A stretch of DNA of 34,864 bases. Origin: Atribacteraceae bacterium. Lineage in GTDB: Bacteria > Atribacterota > Atribacteria > Atribacterales > Atribacteraceae. A program made the translations under genes and the position numbers. The notes under the pieces are model-generated. The model saw nothing but the letters and a program-made list of their open reading frames with translations, was not told where the DNA came from and ran no database searches. Each line of letters opens with the position of its first letter. The stretch's first letter is position 1. Positions 243-12,727 of this stretch are shown here, one piece after another. The stretch covers positions 1-34,864 of the forward strand of contig DATIKP010000075.1 of assembly GCA_035477455.1 (NCBI GenBank). Reading direction: 5' to 3'.

Positions 243-440
243 GTGTTACCGATAGATGAACTGGTCAGGAAAACCGGAAATCGTTATATCCTTACCTCGG
301 TTGTAGCCAAGCGGGCCAAACAACTTAATGAAGGAGCCAACCCGATAGTTATGGTCGAAGGATACCATAAGCCCCTCATTATTGCCCTGTTGGAAATCGA
401 AAAAAAAACTGGTGAAATCGAGCTGACAACCAAGGAATGA
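243..440 (+). CDS. rpoZ: RNA polymerase omega subunit
   Basis: Small protein of 65 residues matching RpoZ, the subunit that helps assemble beta-prime into RNA polymerase. The sequence LPIDELVRKTGNRYILTSV followed by AKRAKQL is the family's conserved N-terminal helix pair, and KPLIIALLEIEKGEI-like sequence near the C terminus is also typical. Start choice: an in-frame ATG at 231 sits directly on the Shine-Dalgarno run AAGAAAGG (223-230), so it is too close to it. The GTG at 243 lies at proper spacing from that run and gives the usual N-terminus, so I chose GTG. The stop overlaps the coaBC start (ATGA at 437-440), suggesting translational coupling. Confidence 0.9.
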   Translation: MLPIDELVRKTGNRYILTSVVAKRAKQLNEGANPIVMVEGYHKPLIIALLEIEKKTGEIELTTKE

Positions 441-1669
441 TCTATCATCCCAGGGACTTCTGGAAGCGTAAAACAATCCTGTACGGTGTGAGCGGAGGAA
501 TCGCTGCGTACAAAGCCTGTGGAATCGTCAGCCATCTGGTGCAAAGCGGTGCTCAAGTCCAGGTGGTCATGACCCGAAATGCCCGGCAACTTGTCGGAAA
601 GGCGACTTTCGAAGCGCTGACCGGTAAACCGGTAATCACGGAGACTTTTTCAGGAACGGGAAACATTCACCATATCAATCTCGTCCGAGAAAGCGATTGG
701 ATCGTTGTTGCGCCGGCCACGGCCAATATTCTGGGAAAAATGGCTTCCGGAATCGGTGATGATCTGCTCTCGACATTGTTATTGGTCTATCCCCAAAAAG
801 TCATTCTTGCGCCGGCGATGAATTCCGGTATGTGGAATAACCCGATGGTTCAAAAGAACGTGGTGTTACTTGAGCGTTCCGGGGTGGGAATCATTCAGCC
901 TGTTTCCGGATGGTTGGCCTGCCGGGAGGAGGGACCTGGCCGATTGCCGGACCTCGAACCGTTTATCGAAGAACTGTATTACCGGATAAAGACACCAAAA
1001 CGCTTAACCGGTAAAAAAGTGCTGGTCACCGCCGGTCCGACCCGGGAATGGTGGGATCCGGTTCGGTACATCTCCAATCCTTCGAGTGGGAAAATGGGTG
1101 GAGCTTTATCCTCCGCGGCCAGAGCGGAAGGAGCGCAAGTCAGGATGATCTGCGGAGCGGTTTCGGAGAGAATGCCTTCCGGTATTCCAGTCTATACTGT
1201 GGAAACGGCCCGGGATATGGAGCGGGAAGCGGCCATTCATTTCAAATGGTGTGATATCTGTTTCATGACTGCAGCGGTGTCTGACTTCCGTCCGATTGAG
1301 TATGTCTCCCACAAGCTGAAAAAGAATGCCGGACAGGGGGCTTTCCTGGAATTTGTACTGAATCCGGACATTCTCGGTGGATTGGGAGAAAACAAAGAAA
1401 ATCGGATCTTGGTCGGTTTCTGTGCGGAATCCGACGATCTCCTCAGCGAGGCGCGATGTAAGTTACACAGGAAAAAAGCGGACCTCGTTGTCGCCAATCT
1501 CATCGGCCGGGACGGGAGCGGCTTTGGCGTGCCTACCGTTAAGGGGTGGATCGTTGACCGGGAGGGCCGGGAAACCCCTTTTCCCCTGATCGATAAAACT
1601 GACCTGGCTACTCTGATCATCGATCATATTTCCAGCCATTTTTCTGAAACATTGACCCCTCCTCAGTAA
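437..1669 (+). CDS. coaBC: Bifunctional phosphopantothenoylcysteine decarboxylase / phosphopantothenate-cysteine ligase
   Basis: This 410-residue protein carries both central steps of coenzyme A synthesis. CoaB joins cysteine to 4'-phosphopantothenate and CoaC decarboxylates the product. The CoaC flavoprotein half (about residues 10-180) shows GVSGGIAAYK, the His of GNIHHIN near residue 78, the PAMNSGMW substrate clamp (126-133) and the ACREEGPGRL lid with Cys162. The CoaB half (about 190-400) shows VLVTAGPTRE, SNPSSGKMG, TAAVSDFRP and the nucleotide-site KLKK motif. Length is normal. The start overlaps the rpoZ stop. The AAGGA run is only a base or two before the ATG, so initiation is probably coupled to rpoZ translation. 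The stop overlaps a possible priA start. Confidence 0.95.
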   Translation: MIYHPRDFWKRKTILYGVSGGIAAYKACGIVSHLVQSGAQVQVVMTRNARQLVGKATFEALTGKPVITETFSGTGNIHHINLVRESDWIVVAPATANILGKMASGIGDDLLSTLLLVYPQKVILAPAMNSGMWNNPMVQKNVVLLERSGVGIIQPVSGWLACREEGPGRLPDLEPFIEELYYRIKTPKRLTGKKVLVTAGPTREWWDPVRYISNPSSGKMGGALSSAARAEGAQVRMICGAVSERMPSGIPVYTVETARDMEREAAIHFKWCDICFMTAAVSDFRPIEYVSHKLKKNAGQGAFLEFVLNPDILGGLGENKENRILVGFCAESDDLLSEARCKLHRKKADLVVANLIGRDGSGFGVPTVKGWIVDREGRETPFPLIDKTDLATLIIDHISSHFSETLTPPQ

Positions 1670-1689
1670 TGCCGGCACAGGAAATTACC

Positions 1690-3711
1690 ATGAAGGGATA
1701 CCGGGTCCAGGTTGCGTTACCGGTACCGGTGTATAGAACCTTTACCTACGGTATCGACAGCCGTCTCGCTGGAAAAATCACCTTGGGGAGCCTGGTCGAA
1801 GTGGAGTTGGGCCAGAGGCGGCTTCATGGGGTCGTTACTGCGCTTACTGGTGAAGAGGATGAGCGGGATCTCAAGACGGTGATCGACCGGCTTCCGGTGA
1901 GCCCTTTACGAGCCTGGCAACTCCGCTTGGCGGATATACTGGCCAAACGGTACTTTGCGGCTCTCGGGGAAGTTTTGGGTCTATTTATTCCTCCCTACCG
2001 GCCGGCGTGGGGGGTCTTGTCCGAGTGGCGCGTCTATCCGGGAACAGTGGAAGAATCAGCCGTTCCGGTCCCCCGGGAAGGGCAAAACCTTTTTCTTTGG
2101 AAAGAAGAACATCACCTTCGGAAACAGGATATCGAGCGGCTCGTCAAACGAGGAGCCATTGTTCTTGACCGGAAACCAACCGGTTTTCCATCTGTGCAGT
2201 ATGAGGCGACGAAGAAACCGGAGTTTCGGTGGTCTTCGATACCGTTTCGGGAAGACCGGGAGGCTTTTTCGGCCCATGTCGTCGATCAGTGTCTCAAGAC
2301 CGGGGAAAAAGCCTTTTTTGTTTTTCCGGATATCGAATCGCTCGATCGATCGATAGGGTTTTTACATAAGAGGTTTCCCTCCCTGCGGCTCATCCGTTAT
2401 GATCGCCGGCTCTCCGGACGCGATCGTTTCCTCTGTTTTCTTGAGATCGAAGGGGGTAATTACGATATTCTATGCGGAACTCACATCGCCTGTTTTCTTC
2501 CGGTGGATCATGTTTCATTCCATATAATTTTTGATCCGGAAGAACGCGGCCATGTTTCTGACCGGTTTCCCCGCTATGAAACCCTCCAGGTTCTCCGGGA
2601 GAAGATCGCACTCACGGGGGGCTTACTGCAGGTTGTCGGGGTGAACCCCGGATTGCACCTCACTTATGAGCTCCGGGAACGGCGATTTACCGAACACCGG
2701 TTTACCTCATCGGTTCCTCTCCGGACCGACCGGGTCATTTATTCGGTCGTTGTGGAAAAAAAAAGAACCATTCTATCCATGACTGCCCGTCTGGCTATCG
2801 GGAAAGTGCTTGAGCAGGGCGGGTGTGCGGTTATATGGACCCAGAAAAGCGGCTATGCCGCAGCGTTGGGATGCCGTGACTGCGGCTTTTATTATTCCTG
2901 CCCGAAATGCGAGACAGCGTATCGTTATTCCCGGGAAAAAGTCGTCTTGAATTGTCCCCTCTGCGGTTTACGCGATGAGCCCAAGAGGATCTGTCCTAAA
3001 TGTGGGGGGGGTTGGTTCGACCCCTGGGGCGTTGCGGTGGAAAGTGTTTTTGAAGAAATCAGGAAAGGATTTCTGGGAGTGGAGGTACGCTTAATCGAAG
3101 GCAAAATGGAAGGCCGGGCCGGAGACGCGGAAATTCTGAAGCCGGGCATTCTGGTCGGAACGTCGGCGATTCTTGCCGAGCCTCTCCTCCGGAAAAGTGA
3201 ACTGATGGCCCTGATTTCACTGGATGACTGGTTGAGAATTCCTGATTTTCAGGCAAGGGAGAGATTTTTTCTCGCACTGAAAAAAATCCTAACCTATCTC
3301 GGTACCGAAGTTGCCTCACGACCAAGCTTGATTGTTCAAACCTCTCCCATGTTCGAGCAACGGGTGTCTTATCTCTTCGAATCAGTAGGCACTTTCTTCG
3401 CCCATGAATTGGCCAAGCGCAGAAAAATTGCTTACCCGCCGTTCGCGGGATTGGTCAGGATCATCGTTCAAGGAGGGAATACGGATAGGCGGAATCGGGT
3501 TTGTAATGAATTGACCTTGCGGATTCGAGAGGCTGGTTTTTCCGCCTTCGGACCTTATCCGATTGCCGGTATCCGGAAGAGGGGAGCGGTTTCCGATGAA
3601 GTCACGGTTCACTTCCCCTTGGAAAGAAACGGGCAGTTGTATTCACTTGTAGGCCGTATTCTTTCCACTAGGAGAACCGGCGGTGTCCGTATCGATTTTG
3701 AAGTATTCTGA
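1690..3711 (+). CDS. priA: PriA-like primosomal protein, degenerate helicase domain
   Basis: PriA restarts collapsed replication forks. The protein (673 residues from ATG 1690, which has CAGGAAA at good spacing; an upstream ATG at 1669 overlaps the coaBC stop and lacks a ribosome site) keeps the N-terminal 3'-DNA-end-binding region (VALPVPVYRTFTYGID), the paired zinc-binding cysteines (CxxC clusters around 2870-3010) and the C-terminal region (RRKIAYPPFAGLVRI). The ATPase motifs are gone. Where GxTGSGKT belongs (about 2227-2275) there is RWSSIPFREDREAFSAH. Where the DEEH box belongs (2533) there is DPEERG. The QVAGRAGR motif VI is replaced by a KKILTYLGTEV-like stretch. The frame is open throughout, so this looks like a maintained non-helicase PriA, as known in Deinococcus and mycobacteria, and not a recent pseudogene. 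Confidence 0.88.
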   Translation: MKGYRVQVALPVPVYRTFTYGIDSRLAGKITLGSLVEVELGQRRLHGVVTALTGEEDERDLKTVIDRLPVSPLRAWQLRLADILAKRYFAALGEVLGLFIPPYRPAWGVLSEWRVYPGTVEESAVPVPREGQNLFLWKEEHHLRKQDIERLVKRGAIVLDRKPTGFPSVQYEATKKPEFRWSSIPFREDREAFSAHVVDQCLKTGEKAFFVFPDIESLDRSIGFLHKRFPSLRLIRYDRRLSGRDRFLCFLEIEGGNYDILCGTHIACFLPVDHVSFHIIFDPEERGHVSDRFPRYETLQVLREKIALTGGLLQVVGVNPGLHLTYELRERRFTEHRFTSSVPLRTDRVIYSVVVEKKRTILSMTARLAIGKVLEQGGCAVIWTQKSGYAAALGCRDCGFYYSCPKCETAYRYSREKVVLNCPLCGLRDEPKRICPKCGGGWFDPWGVAVESVFEEIRKGFLGVEVRLIEGKMEGRAGDAEILKPGILVGTSAILAEPLLRKSELMALISLDDWLRIPDFQARERFFLALKKILTYLGTEVASRPSLIVQTSPMFEQRVSYLFESVGTFFAHELAKRRKIAYPPFAGLVRIIVQGGNTDRRNRVCNELTLRIREAGFSAFGPYPIAGIRKRGAVSDEVTVHFPLERNGQLYSLVGRILSTRRTGGVRIDFEVF

Positions 3712-3767
3712 TAATCGAAACCATACGAATAACCGCTGGCGGTGGCCGGCCATCGAGGGAGTTGATG

Positions 3768-4280
3768 ATGAACAGACGAAAGATTCTCACGTACGGTCAT
3801 AAGCTCTTGCGCGAGAAAGCTCTTCCGGTGTCAGTCGCCAATGGATCGGTGATTGATATGCTCGATGACATGAAAACAACCATGCATTCCAGTGCGGGGA
3901 TCGGCCTGGCCGGCAATCAAGTCGGGATCATGCTGCGCCTGATCACTTTGATTCATCCGGACACCCGGGAGACTCTATCTCTGATCAATCCCGAAGTGGT
4001 CGATTGCGGGGAAGAAACTGAACAGGCCGAAGAAGGTTGTCTCAGTGTGCCGGACATATTCTGTAAGGTCGAGCGTCCCCGGAAGGTAACTGTACGAGCC
4101 CTCACGCCTTCCGGTAATGTGCTGGAATTGACCGGAGAGAATCTGTTGGCCCGGATATTGCTTCATGAAATAGACCACCTTAACGGGGTTCTCTTCGTGG
4201 ATCGGCTCAATCCCATCCGGCGTCTTCTCGTGTCCAATAAATTGAAAAAATTTTCAGTCGCTGGAGAGTATTACCAATGA
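3768..4280 (+). CDS. def: Peptide deformylase
   Basis: A metalloenzyme that removes the formyl group from the N-terminal methionine of new proteins. All three signature motifs are present: GIGLAGNQVG (motif 1, usually GxGLAAPQ; here GN replaces AP but the catalytic Gln is kept), EEGCLSVP (motif 2, metal-binding Cys) and LLHEIDHLNG (motif 3, HExxH with both metal His and the catalytic Glu). Length, 170 residues, is normal. Three starts (TTG 3762, ATG 3765, ATG 3768) are stacked. The Shine-Dalgarno run GAGGGA at 3755-3760 best fits ATG 3768. The stop overlaps the fmt start (ATGA), so the formylation and deformylation functions are translated together. Confidence 0.96.
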   Translation: MNRRKILTYGHKLLREKALPVSVANGSVIDMLDDMKTTMHSSAGIGLAGNQVGIMLRLITLIHPDTRETLSLINPEVVDCGEETEQAEEGCLSVPDIFCKVERPRKVTVRALTPSGNVLELTGENLLARILLHEIDHLNGVLFVDRLNPIRRLLVSNKLKKFSVAGEYYQ

Positions 4281-5218
4281 AAACAGTATTTCTCGGTACT
4301 TCGGTTTTTGCTCTGCCGGTTCTTGAGGCCCTGTTCCTGAACGGTCATGAGCTTGCCGCGGTGATCACCCAACCGGATCGACCCTGTGGGCGGGGTCTTA
4401 GGATAAGTCCTTCCGCCGTGAAAAGCAAAGCGGAGGAACTCGGCATACCCGTTTGGCAACCAGTTAGGGTCAATGCTCCGGACTTTTTGACTATGATCCA
4501 GGATGTAGTGGAACCTGAGGTGCTGATTGTGGCGGCTTATGGGCAGATCTTGAGAAAAAAACTCCTGTCGATACCGCGGAGGGGTTGTATCAATGTCCAT
4601 GCTTCTCTTCTGCCGGCATACCGGGGAGCGGATCCGATACGCTGGACATTGCTGCGTGGTGAGCAGAAAACCGGGGTCACTATTATGTTGATGGATGAAG
4701 GTGTGGATACCGGACCAATTTTATCTGCCCGGGAGCTGTTGGTCAACGAAATGGATAATGCAGAGACACTGACGTCTCGTCTGGGGCAGCTCGGCTCCGG
4801 GCTCTTGATCGAGACCCTTGCTGGCATGGAACAAGGAGAGATAACGCCCCGTACTCAGGACAACGAAAAGGCCTCCTATGCTCCGCCAATGACCCGGCAA
4901 ATGGTTCAGATCGACTGGAGGCTTTCGGCCCGGGAGATTGTAAATCAGATTCGAGCCTTTTCCCCCTGTCCAGGGGCGTATGGAATCCTGAATGGGAAGC
5001 GGATTCATATTCTGCGAGCATCCGTTGGAATTAGTAAGTCAACATGGGAACCGGGGACGGTTATCGGGATAGAAAAAGAACAGGGGATCTTGGTTGCAAC
5101 CGGGGAAGGGATGGTGACAGTCACCCAGCTCAAACCGGAAAACAGAAAAGCGCTCCATTTTCGCGACTTTTGCTGTGGGTATCGCCTTGCGCCCGGGGCC
5201 GGGTTTTCAGTTGAGTAA
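4277..5218 (+). CDS. fmt: Methionyl-tRNA formyltransferase
   Basis: Formylates Met-tRNA(fMet) with 10-formyltetrahydrofolate so that translation can initiate. The 313-residue protein begins MKTVFLGTSVFALPVLEAL and carries INVHASLLPAYRGADPI with the catalytic Asn and His, and MDEGVDTGPIL with the catalytic Asp. The C-terminal OB-like tRNA-binding domain starts near residue 205 and is present in full. The start overlaps the def stop, and a GGAGAG run sits about nine bases upstream. The def-fmt pairing is nearly universal in bacteria and supports the assignment. Confidence 0.96.
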   Translation: MKTVFLGTSVFALPVLEALFLNGHELAAVITQPDRPCGRGLRISPSAVKSKAEELGIPVWQPVRVNAPDFLTMIQDVVEPEVLIVAAYGQILRKKLLSIPRRGCINVHASLLPAYRGADPIRWTLLRGEQKTGVTIMLMDEGVDTGPILSARELLVNEMDNAETLTSRLGQLGSGLLIETLAGMEQGEITPRTQDNEKASYAPPMTRQMVQIDWRLSAREIVNQIRAFSPCPGAYGILNGKRIHILRASVGISKSTWEPGTVIGIEKEQGILVATGEGMVTVTQLKPENRKALHFRDFCCGYRLAPGAGFSVE

Positions 5219-5964: not shown

Positions 5965-7255
5965 GTCCGGAATCTGGACCATCTCCCTGTACCGGTCTGA
6001 AATCTTCTCTTTCTGGGAGCGCGTCAGCTTGCCCGAATGAGTCGGACTCCGGTTTACGCAGTGCTGAATGGAAAGGTTCGGCCGGCTGGACAGTCCGATT
6101 TTCATGGTTTTATTCCCCTGCTCAATGCGGTCTTGCGGAAACTTTCCAGATAGCGGGGTTCATTGATCGAGGTTTATGAGCGATGGGAAATGGATCTCCC
6201 CGGCTGGCTAGAGCAGAAGGGCAAGAACGGATCGGTCCGGCCGCTTTGTGACGCTTAAAATATGTCTTAGCCCGGCCGCCCGTTTTAACCCTGCACCTAA
6301 GTTGGTGGGGAGAAAACCGTCAAGATCTGTGGATTGCCCGGACCCTGCGGAATCTTCCGGAGCATGCGGAAGGCCGTTTTTATATTCAGGACAGTGGTTC
6401 TATCGTTGCGATCGATGTTTTGGATCCCCGCGCGGAGGAAACGATTGTGGAAATTGGGCGCGGGACTGGAGGCAAGACCTTCGGATAGCTCGATCGACGG
6501 AAAACAAAGGAGTCATTACTGCCGTAGATTGTCATCGGAAGAATCTTGATTCCACTGCAATAAGTAATTTTGTTGCAAAAGAACGAAGGAAGCCGGGGCC
6601 TAAATTGCCTAAATCAGCCGCCGAAATCGCCGCATTTTCGAAGTAAATATGCCAGGGATGGCCTTTTCAGCAGCACTGCAACCGGACGTGGTCATTGAGG
6701 CGTGCCAGAAAATGCCAGATGAGGCGGGGCTGATGGCAACGGGGCCTTGCTGAAATGAGTTTTTGCAGCAAAATCAATATTGAAATTTTGCTGAATCGGG
6801 TAAGGCGGACAGGCATCGACATCATCGTTCCACGTTGCACCGGAGCGCAGGAAATGGAGTTGAATCTGTCCGGGAAAGCGGACCGGGTTATGGTTGATGC
6901 TCCCTGTTCCGGCCGGGGAGCCTTGCGGAGAAACCCGGAAATCGCAATTACGATCACCCAGCGTGACGTTGCCATGCTGGCCGAATTGCATAACGTATGT
7001 TGATTGAAGAGCCCCCGGTCTGGTGAAATTTGGCGGGTTTTTGGTATACTGTGTTTGTACTTTGACACATCAAGAAACAACTGAATTAGTCGATGTTTTT
7101 TGAGTTAGAGACTGGCCAGATCTTCCGGAAACTTTCGGTTCATGAAGTCATCCGGAAGGGATTTTCGGGAGACACGGCCGTTGATGGAACCTGGCTGGAA
7201 TTGTGGCCGCACGAAAATGATTCCGACGGATTTTTAATGCGGCCGGGAGGAAACA
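5965..7255 (+). pseudogene. rsmB: rsmB (16S rRNA m5C967 methyltransferase) pseudogene, split by a repeat
   Basis: Pieces of RsmB can be read in order in shifting frames: LDHLPVPV then a TGA (5998-6000), NLLFLGARQLARMSRTPVY, LLNAVLRKLSR then a TAG, LPGWLEQ, FYIQDSGSIVAIDVLDP with a degraded SAM-binding GTGGKT, VITAVDCHRKNL up to 6547, then after the repeat NIEILLNRVRRTGID, VDAPCSGRGALRRNPE (motif IV), VKFGGFLVYCVCTLTH (motif VI, nucleophile region) and a C-terminal LELWPHENDSDGF. About 90 residues of the N-terminal NusB-like domain are missing. At least three stops and several frame changes make it non-functional. Removing exactly 6548-6775 joins CTT to AAT in frame (RKNLNIEILLNR), so the repeat inserted into a gene that was then still readable there. 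Confidence 0.88.
6548..6775 (-). repeat. MITE-like repeat, copy A (228 bp, inside rsmB)
   Basis: The longest of three related copies in the window, lying in reverse orientation to copies B (14880) and C (31741). The outer ends are imperfect inverted repeats: GATTCCACTGCAA on the left against GATTTTGCTGCAA read inward from the right (10 of 13). Just inside the left end, ATTTTGTTGCAAAA (6567-6580) pairs with TTTTGCAGCAAAAT (6761-6774) as inverted repeats matching at 13 of 14 bases, which suggests a 208-bp inner element. The core differs from copy B at about five of 110 positions. No transposase frame is present. Copy A carries about 98 bp that copy B lacks. Confidence 0.85.
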
Positions 7256-9524: not shown

Positions 9525-10331
9525 ATGAATTACGAGGATATCCCCCGGCAGTTTGGTATAACGATTCTTTTTTGTAAGGAACCCCTGTTGGATGGAGGGG
9601 ATTGGAATATAATAGGCAAGCACCTTCTTTTTCAGGGCCGACCTGCTGAAGCTCTGAAAAGTTTCGATCGATCGTCGATCCCTTTCCCGGGTCATGGCGA
9701 AGCTCAGAAGAACCGGAGCTGTTGTCTCATTATCCTGGGACGGATTTCCGAGGCGGGGGAGTCTTACCGAACAGTGCTTGAGAGCGATCCGTATGACGCA
9801 ATCAGACGGCACAAGCTGGGGCACTGTTTTCTTTCACTCCGGGAAAAAGAACGTGCGGTTGAGTGCTGGAAAAAAGCGCTTGCCTGCGATTTGCGTGATG
9901 CCCTTTCCCTCAATTGCCCTGAGGCCGTATTGCTGGAAAATCGCGAATGGGAGAAGGCCCTGCCTTGCTTTGATCAGGTGATCGCTGTCTCCCCTCCCTT
10001 TTCCGAAGTCTGGATCAATCGGGCAGAATTTCTTGAAGAACTTCAGGACGCTCTGAGATTGTTTGAACAAGCCTTGGCCATTGAGCTCCGGAACTCCCGG
10101 ACTTGGTTTCTTGAGCAGCTGGAACGATTGCCGGAAACGCTAGTCTGCTATGAGGCCCTCCAGTTGGATCCGGAATTCGCCGAAGCCTGGCAGGGAAAAG
10201 CCCAGACCGAGGAACGATTGGGAAGACAGCGGCAGGCCGGATATTCCTGCCGGAATTTTTTGAAATACTCCGGTTTTCGCTTTCCGGAACAGGAACTTTG
10301 GGCCGCCGAGCGTCTTTGGGGGTGGTCTTGA
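9525..10331 (+). CDS. TPR-like repeat protein
   Basis: A 268-residue protein with degenerate tetratricopeptide repeats. Helix pairs carry the A-x-x-x-F/Y and small-residue spacing: AEALKSFDRS, AGESYRTVLESDPYDA, AVECWKKALACDLRDA, WEKALPCFDQVIAVSPPFSE, ALRLFEQALAIELRNS and ETLVCYEALQLDPEFAEAWQ. TPRs are protein-docking scaffolds. No partner or enzyme domain can be seen, and there is no signal peptide. The ATG start has only a weak ribosome site. Spacing between repeats is irregular, suggesting in-frame deletions, so partial decay is possible. The stop overlaps the recG start (TGATG at 10329). A TATAAT at 9426-9431 lies upstream but has no good -35 box. Confidence 0.6.
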   Translation: MNYEDIPRQFGITILFCKEPLLDGGDWNIIGKHLLFQGRPAEALKSFDRSSIPFPGHGEAQKNRSCCLIILGRISEAGESYRTVLESDPYDAIRRHKLGHCFLSLREKERAVECWKKALACDLRDALSLNCPEAVLLENREWEKALPCFDQVIAVSPPFSEVWINRAEFLEELQDALRLFEQALAIELRNSRTWFLEQLERLPETLVCYEALQLDPEFAEAWQGKAQTEERLGRQRQAGYSCRNFLKYSGFRFPEQELWAAERLWGWS

Positions 10332-12727
10332 TGACAAACTCCTCCGGATCGCCCCCGCTGTCCACCCTGATGAACAGGCAGCGGTTACTCGCGGTCGTGG
10401 CTCTGGAAAAACAGCGCCTCGACAACCGTTCGGTTGTGGGCGGGTTTGACCGGTTTATGCGACTCTGGGGGCGCACGATGGGTGTCCCCGGCTGGAGCGA
10501 CGCCGAAACGTACCTGGAAAGTTATCTCACTCTATCGATGACGGGGAGGAGACGCCTCATCAACACGTTGGAAAAGATGCTCACACAATTGCCCGAAACC
10601 GGGAGAGAGAATTGTGAAAAACGGGAAAAGCCGGAGCGGCCGACCCATGTTACACGGCTTCGCGAGCCGGTGCGCAGCCTCCAGGGGGTGGGTCCGGTAC
10701 TTGACCGGAAGCTTGCGCAACTGGGTGTCCGTACCCTAGGAGACTTTTTATACGCCTTTCCTCGTACCTATCGGGACCGGGGTGAGATTCTGAGCCTCTC
10801 GGACCTACAGGAAGGACGCTTGCTTACTGTTGAAGCCGTGGTTTTTGCACAACATCGTATACCAACCCGGCGGAAGCGGCTCCTGAAAATTGTCTTGGCG
10901 GAGGGAGACCGGAAGGCCAATCTGGTGTGCTTCAACCAGGAATATCTGGCCCGCATTCTTCTTCCCGGAAAAAGAGTCAAGGTTACTGGCACTTTCTCTT
11001 TCCGTTACGGAGCCTGGGAGACGTCTGATTTTGATTTCGAAGTCGTAAATGAAACCGGGCACGACGACTCCGGGTTTTTACGGATTCAACCGGTTTATTC
11101 CCTGACCGAGGGATTATCCCAAAAACGCTTTTATACTTTGGTTTCCGAGGTCCTGGATGAATTTTTGGAGGACGTGGAGGAAGTCCTTCCGGAATCGGTA
11201 CGCACCCGGTATAAGCTCGTGAAAAAACAGGAAGCGATTCGGGAACTGCACCGGCCCAGACGGTCTAACTTTACTGAACTGATCGCCAGAAACAGCGTGG
11301 CTCACCGTTCGATCATTTTCGAAGAATGCCTGGTTTTTGCCCTGGGATTGAGATTGAAACGTCAGGCGATCAAAAAAGTCCGGAGTCGGAGCTATTCTCC
11401 ACAATCAACCCTGGTCAGGCATTTTCTCGATTCCTTGCCGTATCGACTGACCAAGGCCCAGGAACAGGTGTTTCGGGAAATCGTCGCCGACCTGACCCGA
11501 CCCATTCCTATGAGCCGTCTGGTGCAAGGAGATGTCGGTTCCGGGAAAACAGTGATCGCTCTTCTGGGGGCTCTGCAGGTTATTGGACAGGGAAGTCAGG
11601 TGGCCATGATGGTGCCCACCGAGATCCTGGCCGAGCAACACCATCAGAGATGGAAAGACCCTCTGGAAAAACTGGGGGTGACAGTCGGCTTGCTGCGAGG
11701 GGGGACGGGCAGAGAAAAAAATACCTTAATCAAAGCCATCAAGCAAAAGACGATTGACCTGGTGATCGGTACCCATGCCTTGATTCAGGATCAGGTGATC
11801 TTTGCGGATTTGGGGCTGGTGATTGTCGATGAACAGCATCGTTTCGGTGTGACCCAGCGTTCCAGGCTCCAGGAAAAAGCGGAGTATCCTCATGTTCTGG
11901 TCATGAGCGCCACACCCATCCCTCGTACCCTGGCTCTTACTCTTTACGGCGATCTGGATATTTCGGTGGTGGATCAAAAGCCGGCCGGCCGGAAAAAAAT
12001 AGTGACTTGCTACTTTCGTGAAGACGAGAGACATAAGGCTTATAACCGGGTGGCCGGCTTCCTGGATCGCGGCCACCAGGCGTATGTGGTCTGCCCGGCT
12101 ATCGAAGAAAATGATGATGAAATGGTTTCGGTGAGGAGGATCTTCGAAGAGCTGCAAAATAAATGGCTGAAGGATGCCCGGATCGCGATGCTTCATGGTC
12201 GACTTTCCCTTCAGGAAAAAGAAGCGGTTATGCGCCGGTTTGTCCAGCGGGAGATCGACGTTGTGGTGGCGACATCTGTAATCGAAGTGGGTGTGGACGT
12301 CCCGACGGCCAATGTGATGGTTGTCGAGAATGCCGAACGATTCGGTTTGGCGCAACTCCATCAACTGCGGGGGAGGATCGGCCGGGGAGAGAGTGAGGCG
12401 CTGTGTATCCTGTTGACTCGCTCTGCCGAGGGACCGGCGCTGGAGCGGGTCAGGATCATGACCACAATTGACGATGGCTTTGTTATAGCCGAGGAAGACT
12501 TGAAGATGAGGGGACCTGGCGAATTTTTTGGAACCAGACAGCATGGGCTCTCGGAATTTCGTTTAACTGATCCCCTTACCGACTGGCCCGTGCTTGAACA
12601 GGCTGTTCACGAAGCCGGGCTTCTTCTGGAGGAAGACCCTGATTTGTCCTTATCCGGGAATAAGGCGATCTGTCGAGAGGTCGAAGAACGTTTTGCTTAT
12701 CGTTTTAAGGCGGGGGAACTGGGTTGA
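10331..12727 (+). CDS. recG: ATP-dependent DNA helicase RecG
   Basis: RecG reverses stalled forks and migrates branched DNA junctions. The 798-residue protein has an extended N-terminal region, the helix-hairpin-like GVGPVLDRKLAQLGVRT and LYAFPRTYRDR segment, the wedge OB-fold (about residues 150-280), then two helicase domains: QGDVGSGKTVIALLG (Walker A), IVDEQHRFGV (DEQH box), MSATPIPRTLAL, TSVIEVGVDVPTANVM and HQLRGRIGRG (motif VI), and the C-terminal GEFFGTRQHGL. All motifs are intact, unlike in PriA nearby. ATG at 10331 overlaps the TPR gene's stop and has a G-rich ribosome site. A longer in-frame start at 10298 would lie inside the TPR gene and is less likely. Confidence 0.96.
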   Translation: MTNSSGSPPLSTLMNRQRLLAVVALEKQRLDNRSVVGGFDRFMRLWGRTMGVPGWSDAETYLESYLTLSMTGRRRLINTLEKMLTQLPETGRENCEKREKPERPTHVTRLREPVRSLQGVGPVLDRKLAQLGVRTLGDFLYAFPRTYRDRGEILSLSDLQEGRLLTVEAVVFAQHRIPTRRKRLLKIVLAEGDRKANLVCFNQEYLARILLPGKRVKVTGTFSFRYGAWETSDFDFEVVNETGHDDSGFLRIQPVYSLTEGLSQKRFYTLVSEVLDEFLEDVEEVLPESVRTRYKLVKKQEAIRELHRPRRSNFTELIARNSVAHRSIIFEECLVFALGLRLKRQAIKKVRSRSYSPQSTLVRHFLDSLPYRLTKAQEQVFREIVADLTRPIPMSRLVQGDVGSGKTVIALLGALQVIGQGSQVAMMVPTEILAEQHHQRWKDPLEKLGVTVGLLRGGTGREKNTLIKAIKQKTIDLVIGTHALIQDQVIFADLGLVIVDEQHRFGVTQRSRLQEKAEYPHVLVMSATPIPRTLALTLYGDLDISVVDQKPAGRKKIVTCYFREDERHKAYNRVAGFLDRGHQAYVVCPAIEENDDEMVSVRRIFEELQNKWLKDARIAMLHGRLSLQEKEAVMRRFVQREIDVVVATSVIEVGVDVPTANVMVVENAERFGLAQLHQLRGRIGRGESEALCILLTRSAEGPALERVRIMTTIDDGFVIAEEDLKMRGPGEFFGTRQHGLSEFRLTDPLTDWPVLEQAVHEAGLLLEEDPDLSLSGNKAICREVEERFAYRFKAGELG

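Follow-up and report, generated by a model that had tools for sequence, protein, structure and literature searches.

PriA is described as the main initiator of replication restart, usually as a helicase. A priA gene whose product has kept its DNA-binding parts and lost its nucleotide-binding motifs raises the question of whether the gene is decaying, has been put to another use or still serves restart without a motor. Such a gene (the query below) was found in the window, i.e. the whole stretch of 34,864 nucleotides that was analysed, which is contig C75 of an Atribacteraceae genome of 2.16 Mb and 96% completeness. All genes and features of the window described here lie on the forward strand.

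The priA gene and its surroundings

The priA reading frame (1669..3711) encodes 680 amino acids when read from the ATG at 1669, which overlaps the stop codon of the upstream neighbour coaBC (437..1669). A second ATG at 1690, in the same frame and preceded by AGGA, gives a product of 673 residues and bears out the open frame of that length reported in the first-pass annotation. Downstream are the conserved neighbours def (peptide deformylase, 3762..4280) and fmt (4277..5218), and the same cluster contains recG (10298..12727; above its NCBIfam cut-off), which encodes a fork-remodelling helicase and is a candidate provider of unwinding. Between fmt and recG, rsmB (16S rRNA methyltransferase, about 5965-7240) is apparently broken, with matches to the protein of a relative in several frames and internal stops; in the four relatives checked the corresponding place holds an open frame of 437-453 codons.

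A second intact PriA in the genome had been named as a sign that the copy at this locus is simply degenerating. The 96%-complete genome was searched with the PF17764 and TIGR00595 profiles and no second PriA was found: PF17764 gave a single match, i.e. one PriA copy, and the other matches to TIGR00595 were weaker and corresponded to other helicases, including the RecG in the window.

The nucleotide-contacting motifs are replaced

When aligned with E. coli PriA (NP_418370.1), the query lacks helicase motifs I, II, III and VI, all of which are required of a PriA helicase. In place of the Walker A sequence GVTGSGKT (motif I, E. coli 224-231) it has IPFREDRE (residues 191-198; 2239..2262), where R197 occupies the position of E. 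coli K230. The DEEH box (motif II, E. coli 320) has become FDPE (288; 2530..2541), motif III has changed from GSATP (E. coli 355) to VGVNP (323; 2635..2649) and motif VI from QVAGRAGR (E. coli 580) to KILTYLGT (539; 3283..3306). The earlier observation that Walker A, the DEEH box and motif VI are all replaced was thus correct. The broader statement that all helicase motifs are lost holds for those that contact the nucleotide but not for the remainder, since motif V still has its GT (ILVGTSAILAE, 3148..3180), the motif Ia proline and the final tyrosine of the ARL survive, and the motif Ib stretch (ILCGTHIACFLPV, 2467..2505) is recognisable in outline (GTHIACFLP versus GTRSALFTP). Within the query's own order, residues 288-300 in the former DEEH region form a new conserved stretch, FDPEE.GH.SD.

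The arginine at the Walker lysine position, together with D289 and other acidic residues near the former DEEH box, could be taken to mean that ATP is still bound or hydrolysed at an unusual site and that an altered helicase activity survives. Given that the K230R substitution abolishes both the ATPase and the helicase activity of E. coli PriA, according to the available text of PMC4504706, and that the glycines of the P-loop have been lost too, as have both arginines of motif VI, we regard this as highly improbable; the protein is presumably without ATPase activity.

Retained domains and predicted fold

The 3'-DNA-binding domain (1708..1992) scores 61.9 bits with PriA_3primeBD (Pfam PF17764; cut-off 22.7), which places the protein in the PriA family, and PDB PriA chains match the query at E 1.6e-28 in a sequence search. 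Its score against TIGR00595, the PriA helicase equivalog, is 145.8 bits and lies below the cut-off of 230.35. The cysteine-rich region (CRR, 2872..3003) has kept all eight zinc cysteines, C402, 405, 411, 414, 429, 432, 442 and 445, which correspond to C436, 439, 445, 448, 463, 466, 476 and 479 of E. coli PriA and are invariant in 40/40 Atribacterota and 44/44 active sequences in the alignment. The C-terminal part (3418..3708) has the fold of the C-terminal domain (CTD) and its conserved R..(Y)PP motif. The conservation of the DNA-binding start, the cysteine clusters and the CTD that had been claimed from the sequence was thus confirmed by the profile match, the eight cysteines and the CTD core. 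Asp17 of the E. coli 3'-DNA-binding domain is Thr in the query, and Thr is also the commonest residue here among the active sequences. Retention of the columns that are fixed in active PriAs was 5-6% for motif I, 63-74% for motif Ib, 99-100% for the R..YPP motif of the CTD and 100% for the zinc cysteines; the motif VI arginines, likewise fixed in active PriAs, were almost gone.

An AlphaFold2 model of the query, built from an alignment of 18 sequences, had a mean pLDDT of 85.8 and a pTM of 0.87. In a Foldseek search with this model the top nine rows were all PriA, with E-values from 7.1e-41 (6dgd_B) to 2.4e-28, and Mfd was far weaker (3.2e-11). VIA-align superimposed the model on 6dcr_B with Z 30.4 over 552 residues at 3.7 A. 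As modelled, the protein has the six-domain PriA fold over its full length, with motor lobes that are folded in the prediction although the sequence of the nucleotide site is gone. The query thus shares domain order, full-length fold and zinc cysteines with the PriAs of E. coli and Klebsiella (6dcr, 6dgd, 8fak and 4nl4), from which it differs in the missing nucleotide-binding motifs and in being only about 19-22% identical in the structural alignments.

Comparison with known helicase-dead PriAs

The first-pass annotation had cited ATPase-dead PriAs in Deinococcus and actinobacteria as precedents. The Deinococcus precedent is real: as described in the available text of PMC4504706, the PriA of D. 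radiodurans, a proven pseudohelicase, shows no measurable ATPase and hardly unwinds DNA, yet binds ssDNA, forks and DnaB. It resembles the query in having no working Walker motifs and an arginine in place of the Walker lysine. According to the same text, motifs I and II are poorly matched in the Deinococcus-Thermus PriAs (PMC4504706), whereas motifs I, II, III and VI of the query are wholly replaced. A control from this group, Deinobacterium chartae, gave a TIGR00595 match at E<=1e-60 and the query one of only 1.6e-42. Given that its Walker A and B residues are replaced and that it is the sole PriA found in its genome, the query probably belongs with the Deinococcus-type pseudohelicases, of which the Atribacterota PriA would be a very degenerate new case. 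Within the open-access literature, to which the search was confined (subscription papers lay outside it), the Deinococcus-Thermus paper was the only one found to describe a natural PriA pseudohelicase, and no biochemistry of any Atribacterota PriA was found.

For the actinobacterial precedent the support is indirect. Two genomes (G271 and G384) have PriAs that score above a cut-off of NCBIfam PRK14873, which we take to be the actinobacterial-type PriA, yet lack motifs I, II and VI, and Corynebacterium was lost from the TIGR00595 controls at E<=1e-60. The query itself is not of this type; its best score against PRK14873 was 92.7 bits against a cut-off of 812, its best-scoring models were PRK05580.1-3 and it did not group with the PRK14873 sequences in trees.

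Loss of helicase motifs throughout Atribacterota

The first-pass annotation had proposed to look for the loss in all members of the clade. Among 50 Atribacterota genomes, 45 had a TIGR00595 match; in the remaining five (G001, G021, G036, G045 and G048) the helicase region was not seen. Motif I (GK[TS]) was absent in 43/43 genomes in which the region could be read, and motifs II (DE[EA][HNQ]) and VI (GR.GR) were each absent in 45/45. Relatives that keep an intact Walker A in the same locus had been expected if a single copy were decaying; there were none among the 43 readable genomes. The TIGR00595 scores fell into two grades, about 144-187 bits in the query's own order and 254-481 bits in families f5, f6 and f7, and motif V was largely retained in f5 and f7.

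A search with an order-level alignment returned 18 named loci, of which 15 were from Candidatus Atribacteria or Caldatribacterium, two from an uncultured bacterium and one from Granulosicoccaceae; the motifs of the last one were intact. The gene order rpoZ-coaBC-priA-def-fmt was kept at the named loci as far as the contigs extend, and the order CoaBC-PriA-Def was found at all 13 loci tested from other Atribacterota families. Within genera, dN/dS was 0.10-0.21 in 41 of 42 unsaturated pairs (10 of the 52 possible pairs were discarded as saturated) and 0.39 in the remaining, very close pair. Given these values, priA is maintained in the phylum and, as measured in the relatives of the query, is under purifying selection and not decaying. 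Constraint on the query's own copy would follow from that on its relatives, because the query is the sole member of its genus among the genomes sampled.

That priA is a decaying pseudogene on its way out of this particular genome might still be argued from the apparently broken rsmB nearby and from the TIGR00595 score below the cut-off. This idea is already refuted for the phylum as a whole, and for the query it is scarcely credible given the open frame of 680 codons, the eight cysteines, the whole predicted fold, the absence of the motif in all 43 readable genomes and dN/dS values well below 1 in the relatives. It is also unlikely, if less extremely so, that PriA has left replication restart for a new function, such as that of a structural zinc protein or of a regulator of some other process. 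The new and conserved FDPEE.GH.SD stretch and the low identity of only about 32-39% between the query and the sequences of its own order would be compatible with such a change, but the protein is the sole PriA found in the genome, the gene stays at its locus and the parts that are kept are the DNA-facing surfaces, the CRR and the CTD.

A probable single early loss within the phylum

The alignments favour, without proving it, that the helicase was probably lost once, early in the phylum, with the change from Lys to Arg at the Walker lysine as a shared event. At the position of E. coli K230, which lies at a spacing of 23 residues ahead of the proline of motif Ia, an arginine was present in 69% of Atribacterota (family-weighted, 40 rows), and none of the other positions among the 17 examined exceeded 19% arginine. 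This arginine was found in both deep branches, in 14/21 rows from the query's own order and in 18/19 of the other rows, and because an arginine at this fixed spacing is common to both, a single early loss is favoured. In a free quick tree the two Atribacterota groups were not joined; constraining the 21 phylum rows as one PriA clade gave a lnL higher by 11.6 and was not rejected (p-AU 0.588). These trees omit 19 of the 40 Atribacterota rows and six near-duplicates (L096, L099, L108, L111, L127 and L139).

The same arginine was considered as a mark of dead PriAs in general. In the MAFFT alignment it was present in 20 of 33 rows from outside the phylum, which include the GSGKM row G059, and an alignment-free check gave only 27% (family-weighted, 29 of 32 rows); the mark was therefore restricted to Atribacterota.

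Helicase-dead PriAs outside Atribacterota

The TIGR00595 profile was also run against 389 genomes with a completeness of 90% or more (26 Atribacterota and 363 others); in this survey 377 gave a match, of which 340 were above the cut-off. Motifs were read in the low and middle scorers and in about 40 other genomes. Walker A was clearly absent in at least 38 of the 363 genomes outside Atribacterota, belonging to 25 families, and this is a lower bound because genomes above about 500 bits were sequence-checked in part. Four ambiguous genomes were left out of the 38: G334 (GSGKC), G085 (GPPRSGKTE) and the pair G059 and G194 (both GSGKM). In G085 the PriA (L188) retains GPPRSGKTE and has lost motifs II and VI, suggesting a different order of decay, and in G059 and G194, which are from one family, the PriAs (L061 and L167) are otherwise canonical with a Thr to Met change in Walker A and DEEQ. 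A nucleotide pattern representing the intact Walker A of PriA matched 278 of the 389 genomes. The Atribacterota matches listed for it all read G-P-T and are presumably MiaA, and because MiaA-type genes confound the pattern no counts were taken from it. Fragments (L021, L022, L028, L063, L065, L067, L068, L091, L093, L094 and L125) were dropped from the alignment, from which rows L059, L066 and L109 are also absent.

In a whole-protein tree with the motif columns masked, all dead rows fell on one side of the active ones, with the exception of the GSGKM row. Taken at face value, this would derive dead PriAs of every kind, those of Atribacterota and of the actinobacterial type included, from one ancient helicase-dead lineage instead of many losses. 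Such a grouping is unsafe given long branches and the shared loss of helicase constraint, and it was rejected because a tree without the helicase lobes broke it up: dead and active rows were mixed with at least six changes, although this tree was weakly supported and its starred branches force only one. Furthermore, the dead PriA (L155) of the 1.0 Mb genome G110 shares 41% identity with the active PriA (L128) of G237 across 661 columns, and may represent a recent loss. One ancient lineage is thus rather unlikely. We consider it likely that helicase-dead PriA is a common and stable form and no peculiarity of Deinococcus-Thermus: a single early loss with K to R would have fixed it throughout Atribacterota, and it would have arisen anew in at least 25 further GTDB families among the 363 genomes sampled. 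If so, the fork-reading, DnaB-recruiting scaffold would be the conserved core of PriA and the ATP motor would be optional. The annotation "helicase" misleads for the motorless PriAs. Atribacterota and the scattered families with such proteins provide natural tests of what is essential in PriA, and test cases for the source of fork unwinding (RecG, UvrD/PcrA or none).

A proposed scaffold role and its candidate partners

Taken together with what is known of E. coli and Deinococcus, the retained parts make it probable to us that the query is a PriA orthologue turned pseudohelicase, an ATP-independent scaffold that recognises forks and recruits DnaB, with the helicase lost probably once and early. 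This role is suggested by analogy, because the retained parts are those needed for fork and DnaB binding in the two systems studied biochemically. For E. coli PriA bound to a fork, the available text of PMC10175261 describes a lobe-1 loop wedged into the fork junction and a CRR that bears the PriB docking site required for DnaB loading. The DnaB-loading assay with E. coli proteins in the same source uses the ATPase-inactive K230A PriA (PMC10175261), and E. coli priA300 (K230R) is reported to still support SDR (available text of PMC7326373). These engineered variants are laboratory counterparts of the query, whose state is natural and old.

By this model abandoned forks and D-loops would be bound by the 3'-DNA-binding domain, the CTD and the surface of the lobes that faces the fork, and the CRR would recruit or help load DnaB without ATP hydrolysis, probably together with DciA. 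Remodelling of the lagging-strand arm might be provided by RecG or a UvrD/PcrA-type helicase, or might be dispensable; a UvrD-type helicase was found in 44/50 Atribacterota genomes. DciA was present in 42/50, including the genome of the window, and may act together with PriA according to the available text of PMC9825169. In the survey outside the phylum DciA was found in 31/38 genomes with a dead PriA and in 263/325 of the remaining ones, i.e. there was no enrichment. A housekeeping loader of the DnaC type was looked for with PF01695, and matches were patchy (19/50 genomes, 8/22 of the best). Given this patchiness, and that the matches include repeated near-identical copies which we take to be IstB of IS21, no DnaC-type loader with a housekeeping role was apparent, and DciA is for this reason the probable loading partner. 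One Atribacterota genome that consists of a single contig (G005:C1) has a large number of nearly identical ORFs of the IstB type, each 318 codons long, at several places.
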